Shown here piece after piece: positions 1,606-30,259 of a DNA stretch of 64,000 bases. Every line of letters begins with the position of its first letter. The stretch's first letter is position 1. The notes under the pieces were generated by a model, which was not told the DNA's origin, ran no database searches, and was given only the letters and a program-made list of their open reading frames with translations. The DNA lies in NCBI GenBank assembly GCA_025359185.1, contig JANYHF010000025.1, forward strand, positions 124,001-188,000, read 5' to 3'. This stretch comes from Hyphomicrobiaceae bacterium. Lineage in GTDB: Bacteria; Pseudomonadota; Alphaproteobacteria; Rhizobiales; Hyphomicrobiaceae. The position numbers and the translations under genes were made by a program.

Positions 1606-2892
1606 TTACGCCGCCTCCGCCGATCCGGAGAACAGCTCGCGGAACACGGGATAGATGTCGCTGGGCGACGACACGCGGCGCATGGCGAAATTCTCGTTGC
1701 CATCGACCAGCTCTTCGTAGCCGGTCCAGACCAGGCTGTCGGACATGCCGCCGCGCTGGTTCTCGGGCGCGACCTCGATATAGGCGAAATACTGCGTGAG
1801 CGGAAGGATGCCCTCCTGTAGCAGAGCCATGGCCTTGTCCATATCGTCGTCGAAGTTGTGACCATCGGAGGCTTGGGCCGTATAGATGTTCCAATCGGAC
1901 ACTGGATAGCGCTCCTTGACGATTTCCAGCATCTTATCGAACGCCGTCGAAATCACCGTACCGCCGGTTTCGGTGCCGCGGAAGAAGGTTTCCTCGTCCA
2001 CTTCTGCCGCCTCTGTCGTGTGCCGCACGAACACGACGTTCACTTCGCGATAGTGCCGGGTGAGAAAGACGTGCAGCAGCATGAAGAACTGCTTGGCGAG
2101 GTCTTTTAGCTGCTCGGTCATCGAGGCCGAGACGTCCATCAGGCAGAACATGACGGCTTGCGTCGTCGGTTTGGGGACGCGGTCGAAACGGTTGTACTGC
2201 ATGTCGAGCGGGTCGATATAGGCGACGGTTTTGCGCAAACGTACGAGCCGGTCAAGACGCTGGCGCAGTTCCGCGATCTTGGCCAAATTATTCGGCGTTT
2301 TGGCCTCTTCGGCGGCCAATTCATCTTCCATGAGCTTGATCGACAGGCTGCTGGGCCGGCGCAGGGCAATGCGGCGGGCGAGGCTGTTGCGCATGGTGCG
2401 CACACGGTTGAGTTTCGACGGCGGGCCATCGGACGAATAGCCAGCCCGTACGGGCTTGGGCGACTTCATGTCCTTCAGCTTGGCCTTGATCATGTTCGGC
2501 AGCTTCAGGTCTTCGAAGAACAGATCGAGGAATTCGTCCTTGCTCAGCGAAAACACGAAGTCGTCCTCGCCCGCCCCATCCGGGCTGCCCTTGTTGCCGG
2601 AGCCGCCACCGCCGCCCTGCGGCTTGGGAATGGCGTCGCCCGCCGAATAATCATGGTTGCCCGGCAGCACGAAGTCGCGCGAGCCCGTCGATGGATTGTG
2701 CCGGAACGTCGGCTCCCTCAAGCTCTTTGCACGGATCGACACCCGCTCGCCGCCCGCCACATCCGACACCTTGCGCTTTTTGAGGGCGTCCCGCACCGCC
2801 TCGCGCACTTCGTTCTTGGCCCGTCGCAAGAAGCGTTGGCGGTTGCCAAGGCTCTTGGCCTTGGGGTTCAAGCGGCGGTCGACGATGTTCAT
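1606..2892 (-). CDS. yeaH: YeaH/YhbH family protein (DUF444), von Willebrand A-like
   Basis: This 428-aa protein begins MNIVDRRLNPKAKSLGNRQR, typical of the YeaH/DUF444 family. A Gly-rich linker lies at about 92-100. Residues ~245-428 look like a von Willebrand A fold with a MIDAS-type motif DVSAS at 253-257. The family has an unknown biochemical role and is genetically tied to the PrkA kinase and SpoVR, which flank it here. The vWA fold suggests a metal-dependent protein-interaction role, which is inference. The gene is the middle one of prkA-yeaH-spoVR. Both gaps around it (137 and 121 bp) carry long inverted repeats, unusual for an otherwise compact operon, and these may tune the relative amounts of the three proteins. 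Confidence 0.93.
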   Translation of the reverse strand: MNIVDRRLNPKAKSLGNRQRFLRRAKNEVREAVRDALKKRKVSDVAGGERVSIRAKSLREPTFRHNPSTGSRDFVLPGNHDYSAGDAIPKPQGGGGGSGNKGSPDGAGEDDFVFSLSKDEFLDLFFEDLKLPNMIKAKLKDMKSPKPVRAGYSSDGPPSKLNRVRTMRNSLARRIALRRPSSLSIKLMEDELAAEEAKTPNNLAKIAELRQRLDRLVRLRKTVAYIDPLDMQYNRFDRVPKPTTQAVMFCLMDVSASMTEQLKDLAKQFFMLLHVFLTRHYREVNVVFVRHTTEAAEVDEETFFRGTETGGTVISTAFDKMLEIVKERYPVSDWNIYTAQASDGHNFDDDMDKAMALLQEGILPLTQYFAYIEVAPENQRGGMSDSLVWTGYEELVDGNENFAMRRVSSPSDIYPVFRELFSGSAEAA

Positions 2893-2917
2893 TTCGTTTC
2901 GCTCAATTCATAAGGGA

Positions 2918-3002
2918 GGCAGCGGGCAGCGGGCAACAGGCAGCGGGAACAAAGAAGCGACATACCTTTCTTCCCGCTGCCTGTTGCCCGTTGCCTGCTG
3001 CC
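2918..3002. repeat. Long inverted repeat between prkA and yeaH
   Basis: The left arm 2918-2949 and right arm 2971-3002 match as reverse complements at 30 of 32 positions around a 21-base loop. The arms consist of tandem GGCAGCGG / GGCAACAG-like octamers. It sits in the 137-bp gap between prkA and yeaH and would fold into a very stable mRNA hairpin. It is the same architecture as the element between yeaH and spoVR but a different sequence. I see no U-run after it on the minus strand, so a simple terminator is not obvious. Confidence 0.8.
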
Positions 3003-3029
3003 ATTCTGGAGTTACCCGTTGCCTTTGTC

Positions 3030-4976
3030 TTAAGACGATTTTTTGACCCGCATATACCACTCGACCAGCCGCCTCACTTGCCTTGGCGTGTAGCCGCGCT
3101 CTTCCATGCGATTGACGAACTCGTCGTGCTTCTTGGCGGTGTCGCCGTCCTTCTTGGCACCGAACGAGATCACCGGCAGCAGGTCTTCGACCTGGCTGAA
3201 CATGCGGCGCTCGATGACGTCGCGGATCTTCTCATAGGACGTCCAGCTCGGATTCTTGCCGCCGTTCTTGGCGCGGGCACGCAGCGAGAACTTCACCACT
3301 TCGTAGCGGAAGTCCTTTGGATTACCGATGCCTGCAGGTTTTTCGATTTTGCTCAATTCCTGATCCAAGAGACCGCGGTTCATCAGCTGGCCGGTGTCGG
3401 GATCCTTGAAGTCGTGGTCTTCAATCCAGGCGTCGGCATAGGCCACATAGCGGTCGAACAGATTCTGGCCAAAATCGTTGTAGCTTTCGAGATAGGCCTT
3501 CTGCACCTCGTTGCCGATGAACTCAGCGTAGCGGGGCCCGAGCTCTTCCTTGATGAATTCGAGGTACTTGTCTTCCGTGTCCGCCGGATGCTGCTCGCGG
3601 CGGATCGACTGCTCCAGCACGTACATCAGGTGCACCGGATCGGCGGCAACCTCGTGTGTGTCGTAGTTGAAGGTTTCCGACAGCACCTTGTAGGCAAAGC
3701 GCGTGGACGTGCCGTCCATGCCCTCATTCATGCCGCCCGCATCGCGGTATTCAAGGATCGTTTTGGCGTGGACGTCGGTGTCCTTCAGGCTCTCGCCGTC
3801 ATAGACGCGCATCTTGGAGTACAGGCTCGAATTTTCGTGTTCCTTGAGACGAGTGAGCACGGAGAACCGGGCCAGCATTTCCAGCGTACCCGGCGCACAC
3901 GGCGCTTTGTTGACTTCGCTGGTAGCCAACAGTTTCTCGTAAATCTTCCGCTCTTCGGTGACGCGCAGGCAGTAGGGCACCTGCACCATGCAGATACGGT
4001 CGAGGAACGCCTCGTTGTTCTTGTTGGCCTTGAAGGTTGCCCATTCGCTTTCGTTGGAGTGGGCGATGATTACGCCCTGATAGGGCAGTGCGCCGACATT
4101 CTCTGTGCCAACATATGTGCCGTCCTGCGTTGCGGTGAGCAACGGATGCAGCATCTTGATCGGCGCTTTGAACATTTCGACGAATTCGAGCAAGCCTTGT
4201 GTCGTTCGGTTGAGGCCGCCCGAATAGGAGTAGGCGTCGGCATCGTTCTGGCCGTGGAATTCCAGTTTGCGGATGTCCACCTTGCCAACCAGGGACGAAA
4301 TGTCCTGGTTGTTCTCGTCGCCCGGCTCGGTCTTGGCGACGCAGATCTGGCGTAGTTTCGACGGGTACAGTTTTACCACGTTGAACTTCGAGATATCGCC
4401 ACCGAACTCGTCCAGCCGCTTGATGGCCCAGGGGCTCATGTAGCCGGTAATCTTGCGGCGCGGGATGTGATACTTTTCTTCCAGCATCTGCGCTGTGCTG
4501 TCGGGCTGGAACAGGCCGAGCGGGCTTTCGAAAATCGGGCTGATCTCGTCGCCCGCTTTCAGCACATAGACCGGGCAGGTCTCCATCAATTCCTTCAGCC
4601 GCTCAGCCAGCGAGGACTTGCCACCGCCGACCGGCCCGAGCAGATAGAGGATCTGCTTACGCTCTTCCAACCCCTGCGCCGCGTGCCGGAAATAACCGAC
4701 AATGCGCTCGATGGTTTCTTCCAGGCCGTAAAAGTCCTTGAACGCCGGATAAACCTTCAGCGTGCGGTTCATGAAGATGCGGCCGAGCCGGGCGTCGCGC
4801 GCCGAATCGATGAATTGCGGCTCGCCAATGGCCGTGATCATGCGTTCAGCCGCGCTGGCGAACAGCATTGGATCGGTCTTGCAGCCCTCAAGGAATTCCC
4901 GGAGCGAGAGCTGCGACTGCTTGTTGCGGTCGTAGCTCTTTGCATAGATATCGAAGATTTCATTTTCTGATGTCAT
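3030..4976 (-). CDS. prkA: PrkA family serine protein kinase (AAA+ N-terminal domain)
   Basis: PrkA proteins combine an N-terminal AAA-type ATPase domain with a C-terminal kinase-like domain; in enteric bacteria the gene is induced by starvation and stress. I take the ATG at 4976 (MTSENEIFDIYAKSYDRNKQ, 648 aa) instead of the longer ORF-track start at 5117, because GAGG lies 6-7 bases upstream and this matches the normal family N-terminus. The extra 47 residues look like translated upstream DNA. A Walker A motif, GPVGGGKS, lies at about 114-121. This is the first gene of the prkA-yeaH-spoVR unit. The 556-bp region upstream should hold the promoter, but I could not identify boxes. The kinase substrate is unknown. 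Confidence 0.95.
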   Translation of the reverse strand: MTSENEIFDIYAKSYDRNKQSQLSLREFLEGCKTDPMLFASAAERMITAIGEPQFIDSARDARLGRIFMNRTLKVYPAFKDFYGLEETIERIVGYFRHAAQGLEERKQILYLLGPVGGGKSSLAERLKELMETCPVYVLKAGDEISPIFESPLGLFQPDSTAQMLEEKYHIPRRKITGYMSPWAIKRLDEFGGDISKFNVVKLYPSKLRQICVAKTEPGDENNQDISSLVGKVDIRKLEFHGQNDADAYSYSGGLNRTTQGLLEFVEMFKAPIKMLHPLLTATQDGTYVGTENVGALPYQGVIIAHSNESEWATFKANKNNEAFLDRICMVQVPYCLRVTEERKIYEKLLATSEVNKAPCAPGTLEMLARFSVLTRLKEHENSSLYSKMRVYDGESLKDTDVHAKTILEYRDAGGMNEGMDGTSTRFAYKVLSETFNYDTHEVAADPVHLMYVLEQSIRREQHPADTEDKYLEFIKEELGPRYAEFIGNEVQKAYLESYNDFGQNLFDRYVAYADAWIEDHDFKDPDTGQLMNRGLLDQELSKIEKPAGIGNPKDFRYEVVKFSLRARAKNGGKNPSWTSYEKIRDVIERRMFSQVEDLLPVISFGAKKDGDTAKKHDEFVNRMEERGYTPRQVRRLVEWYMRVKKSS

Positions 4977-5383
4977 TTCGACCTCTGCCTCGCCTGTTGT
5001 TCCCGCTTTCCGAACCCGCTCGCCAACGGCTGCGACACCGCCATAAGGTTCAGCGCGGCCAATTGCGCGCGTCAAGATCCCGGCACACCTGCCCGCAGAC
5101 CCAATCTCGTGATGCACATACTACCATTCCCGGAGCGGAAACTGACAAGAAAAATGCGTCTCCGGCCGATGCAGCGCGTGATCAACTCAACGCGACCATT
5201 GATGCCAAAAATGGTGTTTCGAAGAACGCGGAAACCAATCGGCAAAGCGAGCTCGATGGGAACGTCGCAAGGACATGGACACGGTCCCGGACAAATCAGC
5301 GCTAGCACGAATCATAGCATAGGTCGCGGGCCGCGCGGATCACGAATGTTGGTGGTGACGGCGCGGGGGCAATTCAATTCAAA

Positions 5384-15563: not shown

Positions 15564-17813
15564 TTAATGCAGCACCACTTGTACCCGGTCCACCTTGCCG
15601 GTGGCATCAATCACCGAGACGCGGGCAAAGCCGTGGCCTGCGGGCACAAAGCTCGCCGCGCGGCTGAACGGGTCGGACGGAACGGGGGCGTCATCGACCA
15701 TCCAGGTCAGTGGCAGCACGCCGCCCTCGGCTTTGAGGATGACAGGCCGCGCCGTGCCATCTGGCGCTTGAGCGAGGTCCAATTCGGACTTGTCCGGAGG
15801 AAAGGCGATGGCGAGTTCGGGATCGGCGAAGGGCTTGCCCTCGGTCTTGTCCTGACGGTCAGCACCGAACACTTTGAGCGGCGGCGGCAGATCAATGCCC
15901 ACTTCCGCACCCTCAGGTGCCGCAGCCAATGGTACGCGGCGGCCTGGTATGCGCGCAAAGGCATCGAACAGGATCGGCGCGGCCGTGCCGACGCCGGTGA
16001 TGCCTGGCTCCGGCACGCCATCAGGCCGGCCCACCCAGACAGCGATGGTGTATTTGCCATCGAACCCCGCAGCCCAGGCGTCGCGGAAGCCGTAGGACGT
16101 GCCCGTCTTATAGGCGATCTCGCCGCCCTTGGCATTGCGTGGCGGTGGCGTGCCGCGCAGGATGCTCTGGATGTACCAGTCGGGAACCGGGGCGAGCAGC
16201 CGGGGTGCCAGATTAAGCGTGTGCTGATCCTTGCGGTCAGCGATCTGGTGGAGGAGTGCAATGGACTGCCCGCCGCGAGCGATCCCGGCATAAAGCTGCG
16301 TAAGATCGCGCAAGGTGATGCCGACGCCGCCAAGGCCGACGGCCAGCGATGGCCCCGCGTCCAGCGGCAACTCATAGGGCACGCCGGCTTCCTTCAGCCG
16401 CGCCATCATCCGGGTTGGCCCCACGGCCGCCAGCATTTTTACGGCGGGCACGTTCAAAGATTGCCGCAGCGCATCACGCACACTGACCATACCGTGGAAC
16501 AGATCATCGAAATTCTTCGGCGCATAGCGGCCAAAGCGCGTCGGCTTGTCGTCGATCATGGTGTCGGGATGCGCGATGCCGGCCTCGAAGGCGAGGCCAT
16601 AGACCAGCGGTTTGAGCGTAGAACCGGGCGAACGGAGCGCGTTGGCCATGTCGATGGGGCCAAAGCGCTTGATGTCGAGATAGCCGGGCGAGCCGACATA
16701 GGCCAAGATTTCTCCATTGGTGTGGTCGGCTGCGACGATGGCGATGGAGAGCCTTGGGCCTAGGCTGGCAGCCGACGTGCGGGCGAGGTCTTCGAGCGCG
16801 GTTTGCAGCGGCCGGTCCAGCGTCAGCCGATGGATGAGCGTTTCGGGATTGGCGGCGACGGCCTCTTCGCTGAGATGGGGTGCAAGCTGAGGAAAAGGCT
16901 TTCGCGCCGTTGGCATGGGTTCGGCGTCCGCATGGGTTGCCTCGGCAGTATCGATCACTCCGGCCGCCAGCGAACGGGCAAGCACTCGGGAGCGGGCGAG
17001 CTTAGCGGCCTCGGGGTGCAGATCGGGCCGCCGCGCTTCGGGCGATTGCGGCAGCGCCACCAACAGTGCCGCTTCGCCCGCTGACAGCCGCATCGGCTCC
17101 TTGCCGAAATAGGCGAGCGAGGCTGCCCGCACGCCTTCCAGATTGCCTCCGAATGGCGCGAGTTTCAGATAGAGCCGCAGGATTTCCGGCTTGGTCAACC
17201 GCTGTTCTATCTGCACGGCACGGATCATCTGGCGTAACTTGCCGAGGCTGGTTCGCTCGTGCTTGCCATCAAGCAGCCGGGCCACCTGCATGGTCAGCGT
17301 AGACGCGCCCGAGCGGATGCGGCCGTAGCGTAACACGAGGCCAACGGAGCGGAAGAGCGCGAGCGGGTCAACGCCAAGATGGGTCGCAAAGCGCTTGTCC
17401 TCATAGGCAAACAGCATAGCGAGGTAACGCGGATCGACCGTGGTCTCGTCCACCGGCAGCCGCCAGCGGCCATCCTTGGTTGTGAACGGCCGCAGTAGCT
17501 TGCCGTCGCGGTCGAGGACTACGATGGAACCTTCGGTGGCCGCGGCAAGGGGCGGCGGGCCGAGTTGGTTGACAAAGAGTGCTGGCAGAACAATCAAAAA
17601 GAGGGCCAACACGAGCCCGGCGACGATCAGCTTGGATGGACGGAAAAGACTGAATGCCTGGTTGGGCTTTCCCGTTCTACCCCCATCCGGTCCTTCCCCC
17701 CTTAAGGGGGAGGGACCCCTAGAGTCATGAATTTCCGCTCCATCGGCTCCAGTGTCTCCGCCCCCTTGAGGGGGAAGGAACAAGGTGGGGGTGGGGCGGG
17801 AAAGCCTCTCCAC
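15564..17813 (-). CDS. pbpC: Penicillin-binding protein 1C
   Basis: PBP1C is a bifunctional peptidoglycan glycosyltransferase/transpeptidase anchored in the inner membrane. The membrane segment is at 61-81. The glycosyltransferase motif EDKRFATHLG is at 138-147, followed by GASTLTMQ at 169-176. The transpeptidase motifs are STLK (Ser398-Lys401), SLN (452-454) and KTG (569-571). The C-terminal ~90 residues form the PBP1C-specific domain. Translation seems to start at GTG 17813, directly after the macroglobulin stop (TAA-GTG) with GAGG eight bases upstream, so the two are coupled. Residues ~8-47 are translated from a palindromic repeat (see 17678-17798) and are Pro/Gly-rich filler; without them the length is about the family norm. 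Confidence 0.93.
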   Translation of the reverse strand: MERLSRPTPTLFLPPQGGGDTGADGAEIHDSRGPSPLRGEGPDGGRTGKPNQAFSLFRPSKLIVAGLVLALFLIVLPALFVNQLGPPPLAAATEGSIVVLDRDGKLLRPFTTKDGRWRLPVDETTVDPRYLAMLFAYEDKRFATHLGVDPLALFRSVGLVLRYGRIRSGASTLTMQVARLLDGKHERTSLGKLRQMIRAVQIEQRLTKPEILRLYLKLAPFGGNLEGVRAASLAYFGKEPMRLSAGEAALLVALPQSPEARRPDLHPEAAKLARSRVLARSLAAGVIDTAEATHADAEPMPTARKPFPQLAPHLSEEAVAANPETLIHRLTLDRPLQTALEDLARTSAASLGPRLSIAIVAADHTNGEILAYVGSPGYLDIKRFGPIDMANALRSPGSTLKPLVYGLAFEAGIAHPDTMIDDKPTRFGRYAPKNFDDLFHGMVSVRDALRQSLNVPAVKMLAAVGPTRMMARLKEAGVPYELPLDAGPSLAVGLGGVGITLRDLTQLYAGIARGGQSIALLHQIADRKDQHTLNLAPRLLAPVPDWYIQSILRGTPPPRNAKGGEIAYKTGTSYGFRDAWAAGFDGKYTIAVWVGRPDGVPEPGITGVGTAAPILFDAFARIPGRRVPLAAAPEGAEVGIDLPPPLKVFGADRQDKTEGKPFADPELAIAFPPDKSELDLAQAPDGTARPVILKAEGGVLPLTWMVDDAPVPSDPFSRAASFVPAGHGFARVSVIDATGKVDRVQVVLH
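17678..17798. repeat. Palindromic repeat family C inside the 5' end of pbpC
   Basis: This repeat contains a CCCCTTAAGGGG palindrome (17698-17709) and, ~55 bases on, CCCCTTGAGGGG followed by GAAGGAACAAGGTGGGGGTGGGG. Close relatives are at 27735-27788, 42461-42512 and 59360-59830, all intergenic. This copy sits within the reading frame of pbpC, between its probable GTG start and the membrane segment, without breaking the frame. If pbpC instead starts later at a poor codon, the element would be a leader between the two genes. Confidence 0.75.
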
Positions 17814-20800
17814 TTACTGCGCCTCAACCTTCAATTTGCCGGCGTCCGTCCGTGCAAAACGATCAGGCGCGTACATATCTTCGATGGTGGCGGCGGGCAG
17901 CAGGTAGTCGCCGGGCGTGACAGCGCGGACCACATAGGCGAGCGTGACAGAGTTGCCGGCAGGTGCGTCTTTGCTTGCAGCCAGAGCATCCTCCGTATTC
18001 GCATTGGCATCGGGATTGTCAGCACCATCACTATTGTCCGCAGACGCCGCATCAGCCGGTGCACCCGTGCTTCCCGCGTTCAAGTTCAGCGCAGCCACGA
18101 ACCGGTCATCGCGGAACTCGGTGTGTTCGGCATGGCCCAACTGCTTCAGCCAGGGCATGTTGCTGGTGCTGCTGCTCTCAACCAGACGCGGGTTTTCGAC
18201 TTCGAAACCCGCAGGCAGCCGGTCAACCACCAGCACACGGCCGGCCTTGCCGTCCGTTGGCGTCACTTTCACCAGCACCACAACACGGTCGTTCTGCTTC
18301 AGCGTGGTCAAGCCCTTCACGGCGGCGATGGGCTTGCCATCAAGCGTGAAGTAAGTGCGCTCCAGCTTGAAGCCCTTGGACGTCGCGGGTTCCGGCGTCA
18401 GCGATTCGCCCGAGACCGTGACGACGGCCTGCACATCGGTGTCGCTGCTGTTGGTGACCACGAACGGGCTCTTGGTGAGATCGTCCAACGTCAAGCCCCG
18501 CATCAGCGCGCCAGTCTGTGGTTTGCCGTTGACGTCGAGTGTCAGCGTCTTGCCTTGCTCGATCAAGCTGCGGGCGGCCAGAAGCATCCACGATTGTTCC
18601 TGTGTGGACGTATAGGTGTGCGACAGCCGCGATTTGCTCACCAGTTCGGCAAGGCGCGAGGCGGACTGCTTGCGTACGCCAGTTTCGGAAACCAGAGCCA
18701 GCGTGGCAGCGCCATCGCGCAAGCCCGAGCCGTAGTCGGCCCGCGCATCACCGTCAGCGGCGTCCTTCTCCACATCGGCAATGGCGCTATCGAAGGCTTT
18801 GCCGGCGCGTTCGGTGTCGCCATAGAGCGCGAGGGCGGCGGCGATCTGCGCCTTGGCCATCGGATTGGCGAAGCGGTCGAGACGGGTATCGGCGTAATAG
18901 CGCAAGTCGCCGATGGGCGCGCGGCCGTTGCGGGCGAGCACATAAAGGGCGTAGGCGATGGATTCGCCGCCCTTTTCGAAGTCGGAGGCGTAGCTCACCG
19001 AGTTCTGCAACTTGTCGAGGGCTTGGCTAAAGGCACGCGGCTGCACCGTAAAACCCTGTTCCTTGGCGCGACCGAGGAAGTCGGTGACATAGGCGCTTAG
19101 CCACAAATCGCCGTTGCTCGGACCCCAGAGGCCGAACGCGCCGGACGAGTCCTGCATGTCATAGAGACGGTTGATGGCCTCCTGGATGCGGGTCTTGGCT
19201 TCCGACTCGCCCGTGATGCCAGCGGCGGCGGCGACCTGGTTGAGATAGAGCAGCGGCAGTGCGCGGCTGGTCGTCTGCTCGGCACAGCCGTAGGGGTAGC
19301 GGTCAAGCGCGGCCAACAGTCCGGGCACGTCCAGACTGGCGGCCGGGCCAACGGCGAGCGTCACCTTTGAGCGCTCGGGGATCAAATCCTTCAGCACGTC
19401 AGCGGTGACGGTGATCTTGCCAGTCTTGGCAGACAGGGTCTGCACCGTCGTGCGCTTCACGTCGCCAGCAGGCGCGTGCACCTCCAGGCCGAAATTGCGG
19501 TGTACCAAGATGTTTCCGGGGCCTGTGAGTGACACGGCGTAGCTGATCTTGCCGGCTTTGGGTGAGGCGAGCGCCGCGATCTGCAACTTACGTTCGCCTG
19601 CCCCCAGGACAACATCCTGGTCGAGCGCCATGCTCTTGCTGCTGCCTTCGGTTTGCTCGACGGCGACATGATACGTGCCCGCTGCACCTTCAACATTGTG
19701 CACGTCGAACACCAGCTGGCTCTTGTCGCCAAGCGTCAGGAAACGCGGACCGGACACCAGCATGGCGACCGGATCGCGCACGATCAGTTCCTTGTCGGCA
19801 TGGCCGAGCTTGGTCTTGGTCCAGGCGACGGCCATGACGCGCAGCGCGCCATTGAAATCGGGGATGTCGAACGTGACCTCGGCTTTGCCATCCGCGCCGA
19901 CCTTGAGGATGCCGGAGAACAGAGCAACGGGCGCGACGGTGGGCAGAGCCACAGCCGTATCGAGCCCACCGCCGTCACCGCCCGAGCGGGCAAGCCCACG
20001 TTCAGCGTGCATCCCATCGATGAGCTTTCCGTACAAGTCGCGGACTTCGACACCGAGGCGGCGCTGGCCGTAGAACCAGCCTTCCGGCGATGGCGTCTTG
20101 TAGGCAGTGAGATTGAGAATGCCGACATCGACGGCGGCGAGCACGACGCGCGCTTCTTCGCCTGCGGCCAAGCCGGTCAGCGAGACGGGCACTTTCAGTT
20201 TGTCACCGGATGGTGATTTGTCCGGCAAGGTGAAACTCACGCCGAGCGTCCGGCTGGCCGAATCCACCGGCACCCAATGCACGCCGATGGAGCGCGACGG
20301 CATCCGCTTGGCGGCCTCGTCCATGGGCCGGTAGAGCATGGCCGTGATATAGGAGCCTGGAGCCATTGCGTCACTGATCGGTATCTCGACGCTGGCGCCG
20401 GTCTTGGCCACATCGACCATCTGCATAGAGACCAAACCATCGCGCAATACGGCGATGATAGCTTTGCCTTCGCCCTCGGGCGCGATGTTCAGTTTGAGCG
20501 TGTCGCCGACTTTGTAACTCGCCTTGTCGGTGCCGATTTGGAGCACTTCGGGGCTGTCGGCTTTCTCGGCGCCGTACCATCCAGCATAGAAGGTTGTGCT
20601 GCTGGCCGGGCCGCCCGCTTCGGTCGAAGCGACTTGCAGGACGTACTCGCCCCATTGCACGGGAACGCTCAGTTTTCCGGGCGTGGCGGCATCAAGGTCA
20701 ATGGTGCCGTCGAGCACCTTGCTCGTGTAAACGACGGGCTCATAGGTCCATGAGCCGTTCTTGCCGTACCACTGGTACTGCCGGTCCACTTTCTTGACTT

Positions 20801-23153
20801 GCCACGCAAGCCCCTTGACGGCGGCGGGTTTGCCGTCAATGCCGATCATGACCAGATCGAAATTGGCGACGCCGCCACGTTCGAGCACTTTGTCCGAGGC
20901 GGGCTTGATGCCGATGGAGGCCGACCCCGGCAGGATCGGCATTGTTACGGCACGTTCAATCGTGCGGCCAGACGGTTCGCGAAGGCGGAGCGCGATCTTG
21001 GCCTCAAGTAGATGAGACGTACGCGGCAGTTGCGGCAAAGCGATGGTGACATCTGCATGTCCCTTGGCATCGGTCTTGCCCAGTGTTGGCAGCGACAGGC
21101 GCACCGGATTGACCTTTTCGTCATCCATGCCGAAGCGATAGCCCTGGAAGCCCGCCAGTCCTTGCGAGGCCTGGGTCACCAGGATATCGGCCTCAATGCC
21201 GAGATTGGCAGCAGGCGGACCATAGAGGTAGTGGCCGTCGGCCTTGATGATGCCGTCCTTGCCGGGCTCGAAGGCCATGGCAACCGGCGTCAGCGTCATA
21301 TCCAGGCGTTCGGGCACATAATCTTCGACCAGGAACGAGGTCTCGCCGATGGCGTTGCCCTTCGGGTCAGCGAAGACGCGAGCCCGCCAGGTGCCGGTCA
21401 TAGCTGTCGGCGGTAGGCCGAGTGTGAAAGAGCGTCCGCCCAGGCCGTCGTCCTTCAAAATCAGGCTCTGCTGTTCGACGCCGTCGGGGCGCTCGATTTT
21501 CATCGTGAGCGGAAGGTTTTCGGTAGCGTTGGCCTTGCGGTCGCGCAGCAGGCCCGTGAGATGCACCTGCTCGCCGGGGCGGTAGACGCCGCGCTCGGCC
21601 CACAGATAGGCGTCCAAAGGTCCGGGTGCGTCGCGTCCGGCAACGCCGCGGTCGGACAAGTCAAACGCACCGCCGTTCATATCGAGGAAGGCGTAGTCGT
21701 TGTCGGCGGTCTCGGCGATCAGGATGCCTGGCGCCTGGCCGCCTTCGCCGCGCGTAAGCCCGGCATCGAAATGCACGTAGCCCTGGGCGTCAGTCTTACC
21801 TTCGCTGAGCACCTCATTGTTGCGGGCGACGAGCTTGACCTTGGTGCCCTCCTTGGGCACGGCGGTCGCCAGCGAACGCACAAAGGCGTGTACGCCGTCA
21901 TCGCCCGTGAAGGCCGCAAGTCCCATATCCGAGACGATGAACCATTGCGTCGCCCGCGCCTTATAGTCTTCGAGCTTGCTGCCATCGGCCTCGGCCGACA
22001 TGACGTAGACGCCAGGTCCGAGATTGGGGATCATCTGGCTGACCGGGAACGCCGTGCTGACTTCCTGGTTCAGCTCCTGCTTCACGGCGAGGTCGCCCTT
22101 CCAGAGCGCCGAACCGGATTTGTTTCGGATGTCGTCGAACTGGTTGCCCGACAGCTGGCTGGTGAGATCGCCCTCGATGATCGTGCGCGCCAGGTTGCGG
22201 TCACCGATCTTGAAGACCTCGATCATCACCTTGGCCGTATTGACGCTGACGACCGGAATGCCCTGCTGACCCTTGTTGGGCAGCACGTAGTTCTTGCCCG
22301 AAAATCGCGCCATCGGTGAGCGGTCACGGACATAGATGGCGAGCGTCGCGGTCTTGCCGAGGTCTTCGCCAACGGACGATGGCAGGCCCGAGCGCAGCTG
22401 CACTTCGTAGCGTTGGCCATGTGTCAGGCCATCGATGCACAGCTGATAGTCTTCCTTGCTGACAGCAGCCGGATCGGCGCCGTTGAGGGAGATGAATTTG
22501 CTGTAGTCGAGCTGGCCAAGCACCAACGGGTCGGAGAACTGGACGCACAGGCGGGGCGTCACGGCGTCGCTGTCTACAGAGTAATCGGTGATGCGGAACC
22601 CTTGCTGGCCACGCAAGGTGTCATAGGCCTCGTGTACGGATTTGTCGTCGGCGAGGGCCAAGCTGGACTTGAAGGCGCTGAGCGCCGGACGCCACAATTC
22701 GCGCCGCTTCAGCGCTTCAGCGAGTACAGCCAGCGAGTCCGCCTTCAGCATATCGGCCTGGCCGAGCTGATAGGCGGTGAAGGCCGCACCCGTCGCATAT
22801 TCGTTGAAGGAGGTCTTCTCCTGGTCGTTCACCGGGTCGCTGGCCTCTAGCGCCTTGGCAAGCGCCAGCCAGCTCTTGGCATCTTGCGGTTCGAGGGCCA
22901 GCGCGGCCCCGAGGTTCTGCACCGCCTGCCGGTTGTCGCCCGCCTTGATCGACTGTTCGGCCAGCTTGTGCCAAGCGACTGCCGTCTTGCCCGCCGGGCT
23001 CCAGATCTTCTTAAGGGAGGCCTGAAGCCGCGTCGAATCCTGTGCAACGTCAGGGTGGAAGAACGGCTTTTCCGCCGCACTCACGAGACTTGGTGGGATG
23101 GCAAGGAGGATAAGGAGGAGAGCGACGCAGAAACCGGTCAAGTGACGGATCAT
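17814..23153 (-). CDS. Alpha-2-macroglobulin family protein (bacterial, thioester type)
   Basis: Bacterial macroglobulins are periplasmic protease traps that pair with PBP1C, thought to guard the envelope when it is breached. The 1779-aa product has an N-terminal Sec signal (MIRHLTGFCVALLLILLAIP) without a lipobox Cys, so it is probably soluble in the periplasm. A helical, TPR-like segment covers ~40-190, then a long series of macroglobulin beta domains. The thioester motif GCAEQ is at about residue 1290 and a helical thioester-ring domain follows. The internal bait region cannot be delimited by eye. The stop codon abuts the pbpC start, forming a classic two-gene unit. It is large, intact and of normal length for the YfhM type. 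Confidence 0.93.
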   Translation of the reverse strand: MIRHLTGFCVALLLILLAIPPSLVSAAEKPFFHPDVAQDSTRLQASLKKIWSPAGKTAVAWHKLAEQSIKAGDNRQAVQNLGAALALEPQDAKSWLALAKALEASDPVNDQEKTSFNEYATGAAFTAYQLGQADMLKADSLAVLAEALKRRELWRPALSAFKSSLALADDKSVHEAYDTLRGQQGFRITDYSVDSDAVTPRLCVQFSDPLVLGQLDYSKFISLNGADPAAVSKEDYQLCIDGLTHGQRYEVQLRSGLPSSVGEDLGKTATLAIYVRDRSPMARFSGKNYVLPNKGQQGIPVVSVNTAKVMIEVFKIGDRNLARTIIEGDLTSQLSGNQFDDIRNKSGSALWKGDLAVKQELNQEVSTAFPVSQMIPNLGPGVYVMSAEADGSKLEDYKARATQWFIVSDMGLAAFTGDDGVHAFVRSLATAVPKEGTKVKLVARNNEVLSEGKTDAQGYVHFDAGLTRGEGGQAPGILIAETADNDYAFLDMNGGAFDLSDRGVAGRDAPGPLDAYLWAERGVYRPGEQVHLTGLLRDRKANATENLPLTMKIERPDGVEQQSLILKDDGLGGRSFTLGLPPTAMTGTWRARVFADPKGNAIGETSFLVEDYVPERLDMTLTPVAMAFEPGKDGIIKADGHYLYGPPAANLGIEADILVTQASQGLAGFQGYRFGMDDEKVNPVRLSLPTLGKTDAKGHADVTIALPQLPRTSHLLEAKIALRLREPSGRTIERAVTMPILPGSASIGIKPASDKVLERGGVANFDLVMIGIDGKPAAVKGLAWQVKKVDRQYQWYGKNGSWTYEPVVYTSKVLDGTIDLDAATPGKLSVPVQWGEYVLQVASTEAGGPASSTTFYAGWYGAEKADSPEVLQIGTDKASYKVGDTLKLNIAPEGEGKAIIAVLRDGLVSMQMVDVAKTGASVEIPISDAMAPGSYITAMLYRPMDEAAKRMPSRSIGVHWVPVDSASRTLGVSFTLPDKSPSGDKLKVPVSLTGLAAGEEARVVLAAVDVGILNLTAYKTPSPEGWFYGQRRLGVEVRDLYGKLIDGMHAERGLARSGGDGGGLDTAVALPTVAPVALFSGILKVGADGKAEVTFDIPDFNGALRVMAVAWTKTKLGHADKELIVRDPVAMLVSGPRFLTLGDKSQLVFDVHNVEGAAGTYHVAVEQTEGSSKSMALDQDVVLGAGERKLQIAALASPKAGKISYAVSLTGPGNILVHRNFGLEVHAPAGDVKRTTVQTLSAKTGKITVTADVLKDLIPERSKVTLAVGPAASLDVPGLLAALDRYPYGCAEQTTSRALPLLYLNQVAAAAGITGESEAKTRIQEAINRLYDMQDSSGAFGLWGPSNGDLWLSAYVTDFLGRAKEQGFTVQPRAFSQALDKLQNSVSYASDFEKGGESIAYALYVLARNGRAPIGDLRYYADTRLDRFANPMAKAQIAAALALYGDTERAGKAFDSAIADVEKDAADGDARADYGSGLRDGAATLALVSETGVRKQSASRLAELVSKSRLSHTYTSTQEQSWMLLAARSLIEQGKTLTLDVNGKPQTGALMRGLTLDDLTKSPFVVTNSSDTDVQAVVTVSGESLTPEPATSKGFKLERTYFTLDGKPIAAVKGLTTLKQNDRVVVLVKVTPTDGKAGRVLVVDRLPAGFEVENPRLVESSSTSNMPWLKQLGHAEHTEFRDDRFVAALNLNAGSTGAPADAASADNSDGADNPDANANTEDALAASKDAPAGNSVTLAYVVRAVTPGDYLLPAATIEDMYAPDRFARTDAGKLKVEAQ

Positions 23154-23469: not shown

Positions 23470-24111
23470 TTAGTGCCGGGTGCTGACGGTAGCGCCAGCG
23501 GCACCGGGCACAAGATGTCCGCCCAAAGGGTTCAGCACATCGTGTGGAACTTGGCCAACACCGGACGCCAGACGCTGCGGACGGATCACGGCCACGGTCT
23601 GACATTTGCTCCACAGCGCCGTGAAGCTCAATGAGGCCCGGTGAGCGGCGGCCGCGTTGAAGCATTCAAATGTCTCAAAGGCATCGCGGGTTTCAGGGTC
23701 GCGCCGCATACAGTCGCCGTGCCAGCTGAACGAAGTACCAAGCACCATCTGCTCATGGGCATCGACAAGGGCTGGATGCCGCGCCCAGCGGATCTCCGGG
23801 ACGCTGGTGGCGCCATTGTTCAAGAGGCCAAGCTCGATCCACTCGGTTAACAGTTCGGCGGGGTCGAGCAGGTTCAGAATCAGCTGCACCTGCACGCCAA
23901 GGGTCGAGAAATCGCGCAACGACGCAAGCATGGAGCGCGCGGCCGGGGACGCCGGTGAGCGGACCATCAGCGTAACGGTGCGCTGTGTCAAAGGTGGAGC
24001 TTCGACGGCGCTGAGGCGATCCAGGAAAAAACCGGCGAAACGGGATATGTTCTCTTGTTTCTCCTCAGGCTTCACAAATTTGGATTGCCGCGCGTTGTCA
24101 AAGAAGCTCAT
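23470..24111 (-). CDS. Uncharacterised 213-aa protein of the ParA/PBP cluster
   Basis: I do not recognise a family. The likely start is ATG 24111 (MSFFDNARQSKFVKPEEKQE, 213 aa), with GAGGG about 11 bases upstream; the 238-aa track form starts earlier without a ribosome site. There is no signal peptide or membrane segment, so it is expected in the cytoplasm. Residues ~40-200 look like an alpha/beta domain, with alternating hydrophobic strands such as RTVTLMVRS and VQVQLILNLL. There is a striking SFSWHGDCMRRDPETRDAFE segment with one His and several acidic and basic residues that could be a catalytic site. It follows the 1065-aa membrane protein by 192 bp in the same direction and ends before a strong terminator, so it is probably the last gene of that unit. 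Confidence 0.7.
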   Translation of the reverse strand: MSFFDNARQSKFVKPEEKQENISRFAGFFLDRLSAVEAPPLTQRTVTLMVRSPASPAARSMLASLRDFSTLGVQVQLILNLLDPAELLTEWIELGLLNNGATSVPEIRWARHPALVDAHEQMVLGTSFSWHGDCMRRDPETRDAFETFECFNAAAAHRASLSFTALWSKCQTVAVIRPQRLASGVGQVPHDVLNPLGGHLVPGAAGATVSTRH

Positions 24112-24303: not shown

Positions 24304-27300
24304 TCAGGATGTGCGCTTGCGGCGGCTGCTGCCACGGCCGAATTTTGTGGCGATACGTTCAATTTCGATGTCTTCGCGGGCTCTGGCGGCGGCGTGGATA
24401 TCGACTGTGGCGTCGCCGCCCAGCGTATCCGATTGGCTATCTTGCCAATCGGGATCGATGGGCTGCCAGCCGGATTCGGCGCTATCGGCATCGCGGCTGT
24501 GAGCGATGAAGGTATCGATGTCGCTGGTTGTTGAAATCCCGGCTGGGGGCAATTGGGCTTCCGGCGCCTCGAAGGCGTCCCAGCTCTGCTGCAGTTCGGG
24601 CGCGACGGACTGCTGAGCGCCAACATGGAAGGCTTCCGGCACCATTGGCTCGATAGCATAATCGATCTGATGCACGCCGCCTGCCATCGTACTTTCGGCC
24701 GCCCAGCGGAACGCTTCGGGCAACCGCGCGGGAGCCTGCCAGGTGCGGGGGTCGCTGCTGGCGAGGGCCGCATTACCGTTACTGTAGTAGCTCTGCTGTG
24801 TAGGCTGACGGCTGGCCGTCCGTGTCGCATGGTCCGAATGCCGGTCCTGGCCGTTGTCTGACCAGGCTTTGGCGGCCGACAGGTTGGGCATCAGGATGAC
24901 GGTCGAGGCTTCGCCCGCATCGTAGGCCGACGGGCGGGGGCCAAATTCGGGATCAAGACGCGCCGTGCCCGCGACGGGCGATGCCGCGTCAAATGCGGTC
25001 TGCTGCCAGGATTGGTGCGTGGCCTGCTGGCCGGGCCGTATCATGCCGAGCACGTCGCCGCCATGGTCTGGCGCATACGGATAATGAGCATTGCCATTTG
25101 CACCTTGGCCATTGATGGCGCTGAGCGCCGCATCAAGCGACCGGGGCGACGCTGTGGTCTGCGCCGCCGTGGCCTCGGCCCGTGCCGCCAAAGCCACATG
25201 GCCAGCCTGATGCGTAGTCAAATCGCGCATGATCAACGCCAGTTCCGATACCGTCTCACGCAGCATCGCGACATCGGCGGACGGGCCCTCTTGTGGTGCG
25301 GGCGCCGTATGCTGTGGTTCGGACATGGCGTTCGCGCGCGACAAGGGCCGGCGTACGAAACTGGGTTCGACGATCATCTCGTCTTTGAGGCCCATGATCT
25401 TGTCCCAGAAGCCGGGTTTGCGCGCCGCATTGCCGTTGGCGTGCAGCTCATGCCCGCCATCGACCTTCAGCGTGCCATGATCATCGTCGCCATAGGTGCG
25501 GGAGATGTCGCGCTTGGTGCGCTCGATCTGGGCCCGCTTGGCGGTGATGCTGGCTTCAAGATCGAGCGTGTTCAACTCTGACTGGGCCGACATTTCGCGG
25601 CGGCGAAGATCGGCCTCCTGCTGCTTCGACGTGATGTTGGTCTCGATCATCAGCGTGTTGAGTTCGGCCTCCTTGCGCTTGGCCGATTTCACCGCGTCGT
25701 GCTCGATCTCCTTCAACTCAGATTCGAACACGATCTGACTGCTCTTCATCTCATTCTTTTTGATGCGGGCTTCGAGCTGCTTTTCCCGAACCGGCGTCAA
25801 CTCGTGATCGGCACCAACCACCATGTCCATGACGAAGTCCGACCACGCGCCCTTGTTGAAGCGATAAAGGCGGAAACTCTGGATGCCGGACCATTTGCTG
25901 CCGAGCTTCTTCAGCCGCGTACGCACGGCGCTGGCGGGCGGGAAGCTGGCCCGGCGGAATGGGCCGCCGCGCTCCTGGCTGGCAAAGAAATTGATGATGA
26001 ACTGGGCTTCCATCAGGTCTTCTTCCGAGAGATTACGGGCGCTGCCATCATGGTCGCCGCCCGCGCCTTCGCGCCCGGCAATCAGCGGCACGGCAACATA
26101 GTCATGGCCCATGTAATCGAAGGCGATGTGGCGCAGCGGCTCCATCTTGGCGCGGGCGTCGGGGTCATCGTGGATGGCGTAAAGGTCGTCAAGCGTGCGG
26201 TAAACCTCTCCGTCCGAAGCAGCACGGCGGCGGCGGGTACGCTCTTTCGACGACAGTGGTTTGGGGATCGACACCAGCAGCAGGCAGATATCGACAAAGA
26301 GTGCGATGGCGAGCGGAATATAATCGCGCTGGCCGAGGCCGGCTTCGGCATTGCTGACGGCTTTCACTTCGACGCCATTGGTCTGCACAGCGCGCAGTTG
26401 CTGGGTACGGATCTGGTCGGGCGTGGCGGGCAGTTTGAACTGCGCCAGACTCATCAGTGTATAGTTGAGACGGCGGAATGCTTCGATGGTGGCGTCGGCG
26501 CCTTCCACGGTCACGATTTCTGGCTTCTCCAGCAGTGGCAGCGCGTCGATAGATTTGACGGCGCTCTTCAGCGAGGCGGAGATCTGTGCATCCGGGCACG
26601 AGAAGGTCTTGCCCTGCTCGTCGGAAAATACGGTGGTATCGGCCCGCTTGGCAAAGTCGGAGCGAAGTTGCGTGAGCTGAGGATCGGAGCGGAAGGCATT
26701 GAAGCCGGCGACGGCCAGCTCCAGTTTGCGGCCAAGCGCTTTGATGAAGTCGTTGCGGGTGCCGGTCTTCAGGTCAAACGTGCTCTTGTCCTGCTTGACG
26801 ATCTTTTGCAGATCGCCGTCGAGCGCCGCGATGTCGGATTTGATGGACGCCGAACGCTGCTGCACGAACTGCGATGCGGTCGAGAAGCTGGCGGCATCGG
26901 ATTCGCGCAGACGGCGGCGCGGGCCATCGCCGGGGCGGCTGTTGGGGCAGGAGTTGCCCTTGGAGACTTCGTCGGCGGCTTTCTGCGTCGACACGACGGC
27001 AAGACCGTCGAACACCGTTTGCATCTGTGCCAGGCGCGTCTCGGCGCCATGCATCGCCGACTGCACCTGGGTGACGGCAGATTCGGCGGTGCGTGAGGCC
27101 TCCGAACGGCTTTCGAGGAACTTCCAATAGAAACCAAACGAGAAGCCGACGGAGATCAGTGTCAGGAACAAATAGCCGGCGATGTAGAGCGCGCGGACGG
27201 TGAAACCGGTGTCTTCGTTGAACAATTGATCAAGCAGCCAGACCACCATCAACATCAGCATGGCGACGGATGCGCCGATAGCGATCTTGAAAACCAGGTC

Positions 27301-27501
27301 CAAGTCGCCAAGATTGGCTTGCACGAGTTCGAGCATCCCGGAATAGGTGGAGATCCAGGAGAGGATGGCGAGACCGGCAACGAGCGCGATCTTTTTCAGA
27401 TCGTGCGTGCGCTTGTATTCCGGACGCTGGCGCAGCATTTTGGCTGTGCTGCCGCGTACGCCCGCAAAACTCGCCTCTGACTGTTGCATGGCTTTGGCCA
27501 A
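24304..27501 (-). CDS. Uncharacterised 1065-aa membrane protein with periplasmic domain and cytoplasmic coiled coil
   Basis: I cannot name a family. Membrane segments are predicted at ~38-57, 71-92, 104-127 and 395-413. By the positive-inside rule (KERTRRRR right after segment 4) the N- and C-termini face the cytoplasm and residues ~128-394 form a helical periplasmic domain, with Cys185 and Cys302 available for a disulfide. After segment 4, residues ~560-690 form a highly charged coiled coil (KRKEAELNTLMIETNITSKQ). The last ~350 residues are low-complexity with a KFGRGSSRRKRTS basic tail. The start is TTG 27501 or ATG 27489. It lies downstream of an atypical PBP and divergent from a ParA gene, so a scaffold linking the cytoplasm to wall synthesis is a reasonable but unproven guess. 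Confidence 0.75.
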   Translation of the reverse strand: MAKAMQQSEASFAGVRGSTAKMLRQRPEYKRTHDLKKIALVAGLAILSWISTYSGMLELVQANLGDLDLVFKIAIGASVAMLMLMVVWLLDQLFNEDTGFTVRALYIAGYLFLTLISVGFSFGFYWKFLESRSEASRTAESAVTQVQSAMHGAETRLAQMQTVFDGLAVVSTQKAADEVSKGNSCPNSRPGDGPRRRLRESDAASFSTASQFVQQRSASIKSDIAALDGDLQKIVKQDKSTFDLKTGTRNDFIKALGRKLELAVAGFNAFRSDPQLTQLRSDFAKRADTTVFSDEQGKTFSCPDAQISASLKSAVKSIDALPLLEKPEIVTVEGADATIEAFRRLNYTLMSLAQFKLPATPDQIRTQQLRAVQTNGVEVKAVSNAEAGLGQRDYIPLAIALFVDICLLLVSIPKPLSSKERTRRRRAASDGEVYRTLDDLYAIHDDPDARAKMEPLRHIAFDYMGHDYVAVPLIAGREGAGGDHDGSARNLSEEDLMEAQFIINFFASQERGGPFRRASFPPASAVRTRLKKLGSKWSGIQSFRLYRFNKGAWSDFVMDMVVGADHELTPVREKQLEARIKKNEMKSSQIVFESELKEIEHDAVKSAKRKEAELNTLMIETNITSKQQEADLRRREMSAQSELNTLDLEASITAKRAQIERTKRDISRTYGDDDHGTLKVDGGHELHANGNAARKPGFWDKIMGLKDEMIVEPSFVRRPLSRANAMSEPQHTAPAPQEGPSADVAMLRETVSELALIMRDLTTHQAGHVALAARAEATAAQTTASPRSLDAALSAINGQGANGNAHYPYAPDHGGDVLGMIRPGQQATHQSWQQTAFDAASPVAGTARLDPEFGPRPSAYDAGEASTVILMPNLSAAKAWSDNGQDRHSDHATRTASRQPTQQSYYSNGNAALASSDPRTWQAPARLPEAFRWAAESTMAGGVHQIDYAIEPMVPEAFHVGAQQSVAPELQQSWDAFEAPEAQLPPAGISTTSDIDTFIAHSRDADSAESGWQPIDPDWQDSQSDTLGGDATVDIHAAARAREDIEIERIATKFGRGSSRRKRTS

Positions 27502-27820: not shown

Positions 27821-30259
27821 TCAAGGCGTGCGCAGGGCAACCTTGCCTTTGGTGGCGGCGGGTTGCAGTTCGGCCAACGCGGCCGGGGTTTTGACCTCGC
27901 CGGAGAGGTCCTGCAGCAGCACCTCAAGCAACGGAGCCGCCAGCTGCGCGGCGTGCAATTTGTGCGCAAACGGCTTGCTCGAATCGCCGGTGCCGACGAC
28001 GACGACGTAGGAATAGGCATCGCCGTTGGCGAACTGGATGCCGCCTGCCGCCCAGGCATCCACAGTGGAATCCGGGTCGGCGTTCACCTGCGTGCCGGTT
28101 TTGCCGAAATGCAGCGTCACGTTGGGTTTGCGGCCTGCGCACCAATCACCGAGGCTGGACAAGGTGCCAACGCGGGTCTTGCCAACTGTGTTGCACAAGG
28201 GGGCGGACAACAGCGTCTTGATCAGCGGCACGCCATCGGCCTTGATCAGCTTGAACGGCACGATGTCGCTTGCCGAGGCTTCCTTCGGCGGCGTCTGGGC
28301 AGCCAGCAGCGAGCGGTCGTAGCTCTTGACCAGCGTCGGCAGCCGGACCCGTTCGTTGCCGTGGCCTGTCAGCGCACCAAGAATCACCGCCGCCATCTGC
28401 TGCACCTTCTGCGGGCTGGCGGTGACCAGGCCGCGCACAGCCGCCGTGGTGGGCGGCGTCGCATCCTCACGGCCATTAGAGCGCGGCATGTTGAGGCCGA
28501 AACCCTCGATGAGATGGCGCACAGGGTCCTGGCCAAGCTGGGCCAGCCGCCGCTCAATCGGGTTGTTCAGTGAGCAGGCGAAGGCGAATCTCGCAGGAAT
28601 GGTGCGGTTGACGGTGCCCTTGCTGCAATTGAGCGCTACCCCTGGACCAGGCCCTTCGGTATCCAGATAGGGCGATTCCGCTGTGTCTTTGCCCTGGTTG
28701 GCCAAGGCGGTGGCCGCAATCATTTTGCCAATCGATGCGATGGCGCGCACTTCGCGGGTCGAATCGTAGTGTCCGTTGGTGCGAGCGATGGGTGAACCGA
28801 AATAGGAAGCGATATCCCGCATTTCGAAATAGCGGACCAGCTCGCCGTTCTGGTTGGCGGCGGCCACGATCACGTTTGGCATGTCGACATCGCCGGCCGC
28901 CGTCAGCGCTGCCGGATCGAGCGTGTAGCCTGGATTGATCGACGGGGCGAATTTCACCTGCAACTCGCCAAGCCGGGTCTTAATGCGCTCGCGCAGGAAC
29001 ATGTTGCGGGCGATATCGAGCGTGGTCGTGACACCGCGCACATATTCGCGCCAGCCGTAGCCGTATTCGTTCTTCATCTCCTCGCGAAGGCCATAGCGGC
29101 CATCGGGGATGAGTACGTTGGCGCGCAGCACCGGGTTGGCTTGAGCCGCCTTGGCGGCCGAGGGTGCAAACTGCTCAAGCGCGCGCTGTAACTTCGGCCG
29201 CACCTGAGGGTCTGGCGGGCCGTTGGCGATCTGCGTCAGGTCAAACCAGACCTTTTTCTGCTCCGCCGCATCAGTGATCAGCTCACTGGCACATTTGCGG
29301 GCGCGCACATCCACGATGTAGCGCCAGCGGTCCAACCGCACGGCGTTCAGACGTTCGCTACCTTCCAAGAGGATAATCGGCTTGTTGACGGCCGAAGCGA
29401 GCACGAACTGCTCAGCGGTCGTGAGCTCTTTGGCCGGCTTGCCGAAGACGACGCGGCTGGTCATTTCGACGCCATGCAGGGGTGAACCGCCCGTGCGTTG
29501 AGCCAGCCAGAGGTGATTGGCTGTCCACTGCCGCAACGGATCCTTGTCGCCATGCCGGGTCAGCGCCCAGTAAATCACTGGCGCGTCCCACCACTCGCTG
29601 ACCTTGCGGCGGAGCTTCTCCATCGTGCTCTCACGCGAGTCCGGCGGCGTTTCGTAGATCACGCGAGCCAGTTGCATGGGCAGCGTCGATCCGCCAACGC
29701 CGATCCGCACACCGTGGCTCGCGACCGAACGGTAGATCGTCGAGAGCGGGATTTTCAGCACGCCGATGAGGTCGATGCCGAAGGGATTCAGCCAGGTGCC
29801 GAGATTGCGGTCCTCGTGATAGACGAGGCAGCGCCAATACTGTTCCGGCACTACCTTGACGGGGATGGATTTGTGATCGGGATTGGCGACGTATCCCGTG
29901 TCGGCGAGTTGGATCGGTTTGCCCGTGGTGTTGACGTCTTGGGCGCTGTCCAGCAACGGATCGAAGGTGCCGACAAACGCGCCTTCGCGGTCATAAATGG
30001 CGGTCGCCAGCCAGCGCTCGCTGTCGTAGCGCAGCTTTTCACCGAGCCAGACCTGGCCAGTTATGCCTCTGACAGGAGCAACGACGTAAACGAGCACAAA
30101 AGCGAAGGCGACATAGGCGAGACCACTAATGATAACGTAGCGGCTCCAGCCGAGATACGGGTTGAGCATCACCGCATCGAGCAGAAAACGGGCAGTGCGC
30201 CGGGGCAGCGCCAGCAATCCCTCAATGACGAGCGACAGATATCGCAATATGATCAACAT
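27821..30259 (-). CDS. Atypical class A penicillin-binding protein (GT51 plus transpeptidase)
   Basis: This 812-aa protein has an N-terminal amphipathic/hydrophobic stretch, a clear membrane segment at ~41-62 and a periplasmic remainder. The glycosyltransferase domain is recognisable from HEDRNLGTWLNPFG (148-161) and GGSTLPMQLARV (189-200). The usual EDxxFxxHxG is altered: the Phe is Leu and the His is Trp. The transpeptidase motifs are intact: SIGK (Ser509-Lys512), SLN (563-565) and KTG (720-722). It is clearly distinct from the PBP1C encoded nearby and from ordinary PBP1a. It leads the minus-strand unit that includes the 1065-aa membrane protein, and its 5' end faces a ParA gene across 235 bp. 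It may be a specialised or regulated wall synthase. Confidence 0.85.
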   Translation of the reverse strand: MLIILRYLSLVIEGLLALPRRTARFLLDAVMLNPYLGWSRYVIISGLAYVAFAFVLVYVVAPVRGITGQVWLGEKLRYDSERWLATAIYDREGAFVGTFDPLLDSAQDVNTTGKPIQLADTGYVANPDHKSIPVKVVPEQYWRCLVYHEDRNLGTWLNPFGIDLIGVLKIPLSTIYRSVASHGVRIGVGGSTLPMQLARVIYETPPDSRESTMEKLRRKVSEWWDAPVIYWALTRHGDKDPLRQWTANHLWLAQRTGGSPLHGVEMTSRVVFGKPAKELTTAEQFVLASAVNKPIILLEGSERLNAVRLDRWRYIVDVRARKCASELITDAAEQKKVWFDLTQIANGPPDPQVRPKLQRALEQFAPSAAKAAQANPVLRANVLIPDGRYGLREEMKNEYGYGWREYVRGVTTTLDIARNMFLRERIKTRLGELQVKFAPSINPGYTLDPAALTAAGDVDMPNVIVAAANQNGELVRYFEMRDIASYFGSPIARTNGHYDSTREVRAIASIGKMIAATALANQGKDTAESPYLDTEGPGPGVALNCSKGTVNRTIPARFAFACSLNNPIERRLAQLGQDPVRHLIEGFGLNMPRSNGREDATPPTTAAVRGLVTASPQKVQQMAAVILGALTGHGNERVRLPTLVKSYDRSLLAAQTPPKEASASDIVPFKLIKADGVPLIKTLLSAPLCNTVGKTRVGTLSSLGDWCAGRKPNVTLHFGKTGTQVNADPDSTVDAWAAGGIQFANGDAYSYVVVVGTGDSSKPFAHKLHAAQLAAPLLEVLLQDLSGEVKTPAALAELQPAATKGKVALRTP

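Follow-up and report, generated by a model that had tools for sequence, protein, structure and literature searches.

A conserved inner-membrane protein of Hyphomicrobium-like bacteria and its suggestive association with a divergent class A PBP

The window analysed here, a stretch of 64,000 nucleotides from a Hyphomicrobiaceae bacterium, carries a minus-strand gene for a membrane protein with four hydrophobic segments (the 4-TM protein), which lies between the genes for a divergent class A PBP (PBPx) and for a small cytoplasmic protein. Genes for a bacterial alpha-2-macroglobulin (A2M) and for PbpC follow downstream:

27821..30259, minus strand: PBPx, divergent class A PBP with GT51 and intact SxxK, SxN and KTG motifs (Pfam, motif alignment)
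24304..27501, minus strand: 4-TM membrane protein gene, 1065 open codons from TTG 27501, likely start ATG 27489
23470..24111, minus strand: small cytoplasmic protein of 213 aa with a predicted degenerate PLD fold (AF2 model, Foldseek, locus survey)
17814..23153, minus strand: bacterial A2M with thioester motif GCAEQ, part of the neighbourhood and outside the obligate unit
15564..17813, minus strand: PbpC (PBP1C), adjoining the A2M gene (domain searches, locus survey)

At 1606-5117, also on the minus strand, lie genes that we take to resemble those for a kinase of the PrkA type and a VWA protein of the YeaH type, presumably ordinary.

The ATG at 27489 (aa 5) is a likelier start for the 4-TM protein than the TTG, since the first residue of most orthologues aligns with this Met. 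Orthologues were found in 59 of 100 related genomes (in one of the 59 the gene is split at contig ends) and share about 50% identity over aa 27-575, and protein identity at this level across dozens of genomes argues against a chance open reading frame. Named genera with relatives are Hyphomicrobium, Filomicrobium, Rhodomicrobium and Methyloligella. A class-wide sample (n=289) gave a match only in the window's own genome and none outside the order, the protein was absent from the plasmids searched, and a scan for promoters and terminators found no signals in excess over shuffles. The 4-TM protein is a real, conserved inner-membrane protein of Hyphomicrobium-like bacteria that has no family name.

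Hydropathy reveals four hydrophobic segments in the protein, at about aa 38-57, 64-96, 98-129 and 391-419, and an AlphaFold (AF2) model, built from an alignment of 55 homologues (48 orthologues and 7 paralogues), has a pLDDT of 87.7 overall and of about 95 over the loop helices. The features of the membrane and loop regions are:

27331..27390, minus strand: TM1, aa 38-57 (hydropathy; helix in the AlphaFold model)
27226..27294, minus strand: TM2, aa 70-92, ending WLLDQLF with invariant D91 (alignment, hydropathy, model)
27118..27192, minus strand: TM3, aa 104-128 (alignment, hydropathy, model)
26332..27111, minus strand: helical domain, aa 131-390, predicted periplasmic (alignment, hydropathy, model)
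26947..26949, minus strand: invariant Cys185 in KGNSCPNSRPGDGPRR, in the loop after the first long helix (55/55 aligned proteins)
26596..26598, minus strand: invariant Cys302 in TFSCPD, after a small beta-hairpin (55/55 aligned proteins)
26263..26331, minus strand: TM4, aa 391-413, with Cys406 (hydropathy; Cys406 in 48/48 orthologues)

Basic residues prevail in the N-terminus (8+/3-) and TM4 is followed by KERTRRRR, so the positive-inside rule predicts an N-in/C-in topology in which aa 131-390 would be periplasmic. This domain, including both of its Cys, is the best-conserved part of the protein. The loop contains exactly two Cys (185 and 302), which are invariant in 48/48 orthologues and in 7/7 distant paralogues, and a further loop Cys occurs in 0/48 orthologues. 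A C185-C302 disulfide is plausible.

Beyond TM4, conservation ends part of the way through the cytoplasmic region:

25777..26256, minus strand: conserved cytoplasmic alpha/beta domain, aa 416-575 (conservation; AlphaFold model)
25486..25776, minus strand: charged, helix-compatible, lineage-specific stretch, aa 576-672 (tail comparison, periodicity test)
24382..25485, minus strand: variable low-complexity cytoplasmic tail, aa 673-1040 (locus search, composition)
24340..24363, minus strand: IERIATKF, aa 1047-1054, a short C-terminal motif whose class recurs in 52/71 orthologues

A search of 80 loci returned zero homologues of the sequence beyond about aa 575. The tail of the window's protein is the longest of 71 (490 aa vs. 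a median of 275 aa), and its first 125 residues are 6% Pro+Gly and 37% charged, while most orthologue tails are richer in Pro and Gly from their start. What recurs is a C-terminal motif, [ILVAM][ASTIR]x[RKW][FLYIM], present in 52/71 orthologues, as opposed to 5 for shuffled sequences and 10 for a control segment close by. A variable linker that ends in a short motif suggests docking, and the motif may be a docking site. A second tail motif (RETATF-like, RETATFxVPxxEAxLP) is seen in many orthologues (L062, L064, L069 and others) and is absent from the window's protein.

These results bear unequally on the original prediction, which was made from the window's sequence. Its open reading frame, its four hydrophobic segments in a 1065-aa protein and its helical domain with exactly two Cys were all borne out, the domain being helical in a confident part of the model and its periplasmic side being predicted. 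It had also argued from size and from a conserved, charged coiled coil of ~130 residues that the reading frame was not random. The reading frame is real on the strength of its orthologues, and the coiled-coil argument was wrong because the region after aa 575 is lineage-specific. A coiled coil at aa 576-672 is unproven, as heptad or other helical periodicity there is not above that of shuffles. The basic end that it ascribed to the tail is likewise not conserved in character, and it is the short C-terminal motif that recurs.

Searches of the 4-TM protein against Pfam, NCBIfam, PHROGs, PADLOC and PDB sequences were empty or insignificant, and its AlphaFold model matched nothing among PDB folds at E 0.001 or better. 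A defence (PADLOC) or PHROGs family was discarded for want of a match, as was a viral origin, since a search with a paralogue as query gave no phage match and a BFVD fold search gave weak matches to uncharacterised viral models. No family model exists for the 4-TM protein. Its description as a protein of unknown family with an inside-out-inside topology stands after HMM, PDB-sequence and fold searches, with the topology as a prediction.

A first comparison is with paralogues of ~620 aa (L051:9058-10908, L052:9375-11168, L055:9119-10999 and others; alignment A2), which are 57-63% identical among themselves and align to the 4-TM protein with an hhalign probability of 99.2%. These paralogues share the TM layout, the same two Cys, the GxGP motif and the cytoplasmic domain; they differ in having no long tail and are only 18-21% identical to it. 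They have no shared neighbour genes and no family model, and none is found in the window's genome.

A second comparison, of the hydropathy and model of the 4-TM protein with a DUF4407 (PF14362) sequence (L196), shows a similar layout consisting of three N-terminal TMs, a long helical extracytoplasmic loop, TM4 and a cytoplasmic tail. TM2 ends in LDQLF in the 4-TM protein and in LDRF in DUF4407, and a GxGP loop motif is found in both, whereas the invariant Cys pair was not found as such in the collected DUF4407 sequences. Although the layouts are alike, the score and profile-profile tests failed and membership was rejected: the window protein has no PF14362 match, the best of 20 orthologues reaches E 0.72, short of the cut-off, and hhalign against six DUF4407 sequences gives a probability of 1-2%, equal to that of reversed controls. 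DUF4407 had 0 matches in the window's own genome and none in a scan of viral contigs. In a DUF4407 protein of a Rhodococcus plasmid (L201:2917-5403), the C-terminal region resembles that of a Ser/Thr protein kinase in sequence (HCDIKPENI) and a PP2C phosphatase gene adjoins; DUF4407 may be a kinase membrane module there.

The gene for the small protein lies directly downstream of the 4-TM gene in 59/59 loci with enough flank. It has no Pfam or NCBIfam model. Its AF2 model (pLDDT 82) matches NucT, Nuc and FAM83 in Foldseek at E 2e-5 to 1e-3, and also Zucchini, which points to a PLD fold. The HxKxxxxD (HKD) motif of such proteins is degenerate: the His is kept in 49/49 sequences, HxK reads HEQ (Lys to Gln), the Asp is missing and GSxN has given way to GDxMRR. 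R108, E120, W130, G132, R137, F163 and W167 are also invariant. The degenerate motif and these other residues together suggest that the small protein, as modelled, is a degenerate PLD, either a pseudoenzyme or an enzyme with altered function, whose site is conserved. Its invariant His/Glu and WxGDxMRR are accompanied by a C-terminus that is often TRH. In an order-wide sample of 249 genomes, 49 carry the small protein, and some of these lack the 4-TM protein.

On the other side, PBPx is directly upstream and on the same strand in 33/60 loci with enough flank, and the arrangement is also found in distant families. Its Pfam scores are weak (Transgly E 6e-15, Transpeptidase E 0.04), and it nevertheless carries both the GT51 catalytic and the transpeptidase motifs of a class A PBP, with nearly all of 49 sequences keeping E149, GxxxSTxxMQ, RRKxxE, SxxK, SxN and KTG.

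The 4-TM protein and PBPx also tend to be kept or lost together. Among 100 related genomes both are present in 56, both are absent in 39 and 5 are discordant (95/100 concordant); within the family the figures are 46 with both, 10 with neither and 4 discordant, with within-genus contrasts in g3, g9 and g22. Among the carriers of the pair is H. facile (L069). Both are retained where they are unlinked, whether on different contigs (G009, G023, G037) or about 25 kb (G045) or 40 kb (G004) apart. Three discordant genomes have the 4-TM protein without PBPx (G053, G055, G088) and two, both incomplete, have PBPx without the 4-TM protein (G001, G034). The small protein is kept in 9/10 family genomes that lack both, and the A2M-PbpC block persists without the 4-TM protein in G002, G021, G029 and the incomplete G001. 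Since genomes that have lost the pair usually retain A2M, PbpC and the small gene, the co-loss is specific, and the 4-TM protein tracks PBPx rather than A2M. Fisher tests of the association give p 5e-8 to 1e-21 with relatedness ignored. On a tree of the small protein, which stands in for the species phylogeny, there are three supported independent contrasts (five on the best tree), of which 2.9/3 are concordant on average and 0 opposed, a sample too small for significance (sign test p 0.25). The association is suggestive and not proved. Budding growth as the cause of the pair's presence was set aside, as the pair is missing from a genome (G021) that shares its genus with Hyphomicrobium sp. LHD-15.

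Because the 4-TM gene adjoins that of PBPx and tends towards joint retention or loss with it, an inner-membrane scaffold or regulator dedicated to PBPx is the role that we favour, tentatively and with real room for doubt; the 4-TM protein would be the founding example of such a partner. Nothing in the sequence of the 4-TM protein itself names a PBP-binding function. We infer a contact with PBPx, a direction of control and a role for the degenerate-PLD protein. In such a mechanism, TM1-4 together with the helical two-Cys domain in the periplasm would make the contact with PBPx, and that contact would set the place or timing of PBPx peptidoglycan synthesis by activating or positioning the enzyme. 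Signals of position or status would reach the cytoplasmic domain from proteins of the cytoplasm, among them possibly the always adjacent degenerate-PLD small protein, while the long variable linker would join this domain to the C-terminal docking motif. The original interpretation is partly upheld by these results, a scaffold-like role still being plausible; it had relied on the coiled coil and had overlooked three features of the surroundings, namely the small protein that is always next to it, the class A PBP that co-occurs with it and the nearby A2M-PbpC genes.

Most of the known class A PBP regulators come from gammaproteobacteria and Gram-positives, and one of them, CozE, has an inner-membrane topology. 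LpoA/LpoB/LpoP, MacP and CozE offer an analogy as dedicated partners that each control one bifunctional PBP (PMC10746261, PMC7593971, PMC7267771), and MacP, too, is located in the inner membrane (PMC10746261, PMC7593971). The 4-TM protein matches none of these regulators in sequence; unlike them, it has a large two-Cys helical periplasmic domain, a cytoplasmic domain and a long tail, and it is not an outer-membrane lipoprotein.

An alternative possibility is that the 4-TM protein belongs to A2M-PbpC envelope defence and repair, as a membrane sensor or anchor linking protease attack to wall repair. E. coli YfhM, an A2M, is membrane-anchored, and the YfhM-PBP1C pair is homologous to the genes downstream in the window. 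To our knowledge, the E. coli pair has been described without such a 4-TM membrane protein or PBPx. The window's A2M has a signal peptide whose cleavage site shows no evident lipobox Cys, and the anchoring of this A2M may therefore differ. A2M lies downstream of the 4-TM gene in 40/59 loci, mostly within 4 kb (one is inverted and distant), PbpC is in the neighbourhood in 36/51, and the known operon pairing of yfhM with pbp1C has a proposed role in defence and repair (PMC4498604). However, about a third of the 4-TM loci have no nearby A2M, the block persists in several genomes without the 4-TM protein and the presence of the 4-TM protein follows PBPx more closely, so we regard this role as unlikely. 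A membrane sensor or transducer, whose periplasmic domain would bind a ligand and whose cytoplasmic domain and tail would signal to the degenerate-PLD protein, seems to us similarly doubtful. The constant downstream position of the small gene and the helical two-Cys domain, with weak fold matches to helical sensors such as TorS, would fit it, but the TorS matches are insignificant (E above 0.5), the 4-TM protein has no HAMP, kinase or MCP domain, and the small protein outlives the pair in nearly all family genomes that lost it.

The shared bauplan, the resemblance at the end of TM2 and the GxGP motif would also suit a remote member of the DUF4407 superfamily with a DUF4407 role unrelated to PBPs; given the missed PF14362 cut-off and profile-profile scores no better than reversed controls, we think this improbable. 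Least probable, to a degree that we would be surprised to see it hold, is a functionally unrelated protein, such as a structural scaffold of the membrane, whose linkage to PBPx would reflect shared ancestry only. The few independent contrasts and the intergenic gaps of 190-320 bp in the window are compatible with it, but the two proteins co-occur where unlinked and are lost together specifically, with A2M-PbpC staying.

The favoured role as a PBPx regulator or scaffold could form part of something larger. It is conceivable, if rather unlikely, that the three genes make up a previously undescribed wall-synthesis module in Hyphomicrobium-type alphaproteobacteria, in which a divergent class A PBP clade and a disulfide-stabilised inner-membrane regulator would be joined by a cytoplasmic degenerate-PLD adaptor that couples the state of the membrane or of its lipids to the synthesis of peptidoglycan. 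If the proposed role is correct, names could be given to three nameless protein families (the 4-TM protein, the two-Cys paralogues and the degenerate-PLD neighbour), and a partner devoted to one additional, divergent class A PBP would offer a way into the control of wall growth in Hyphomicrobium-like alphaproteobacteria.
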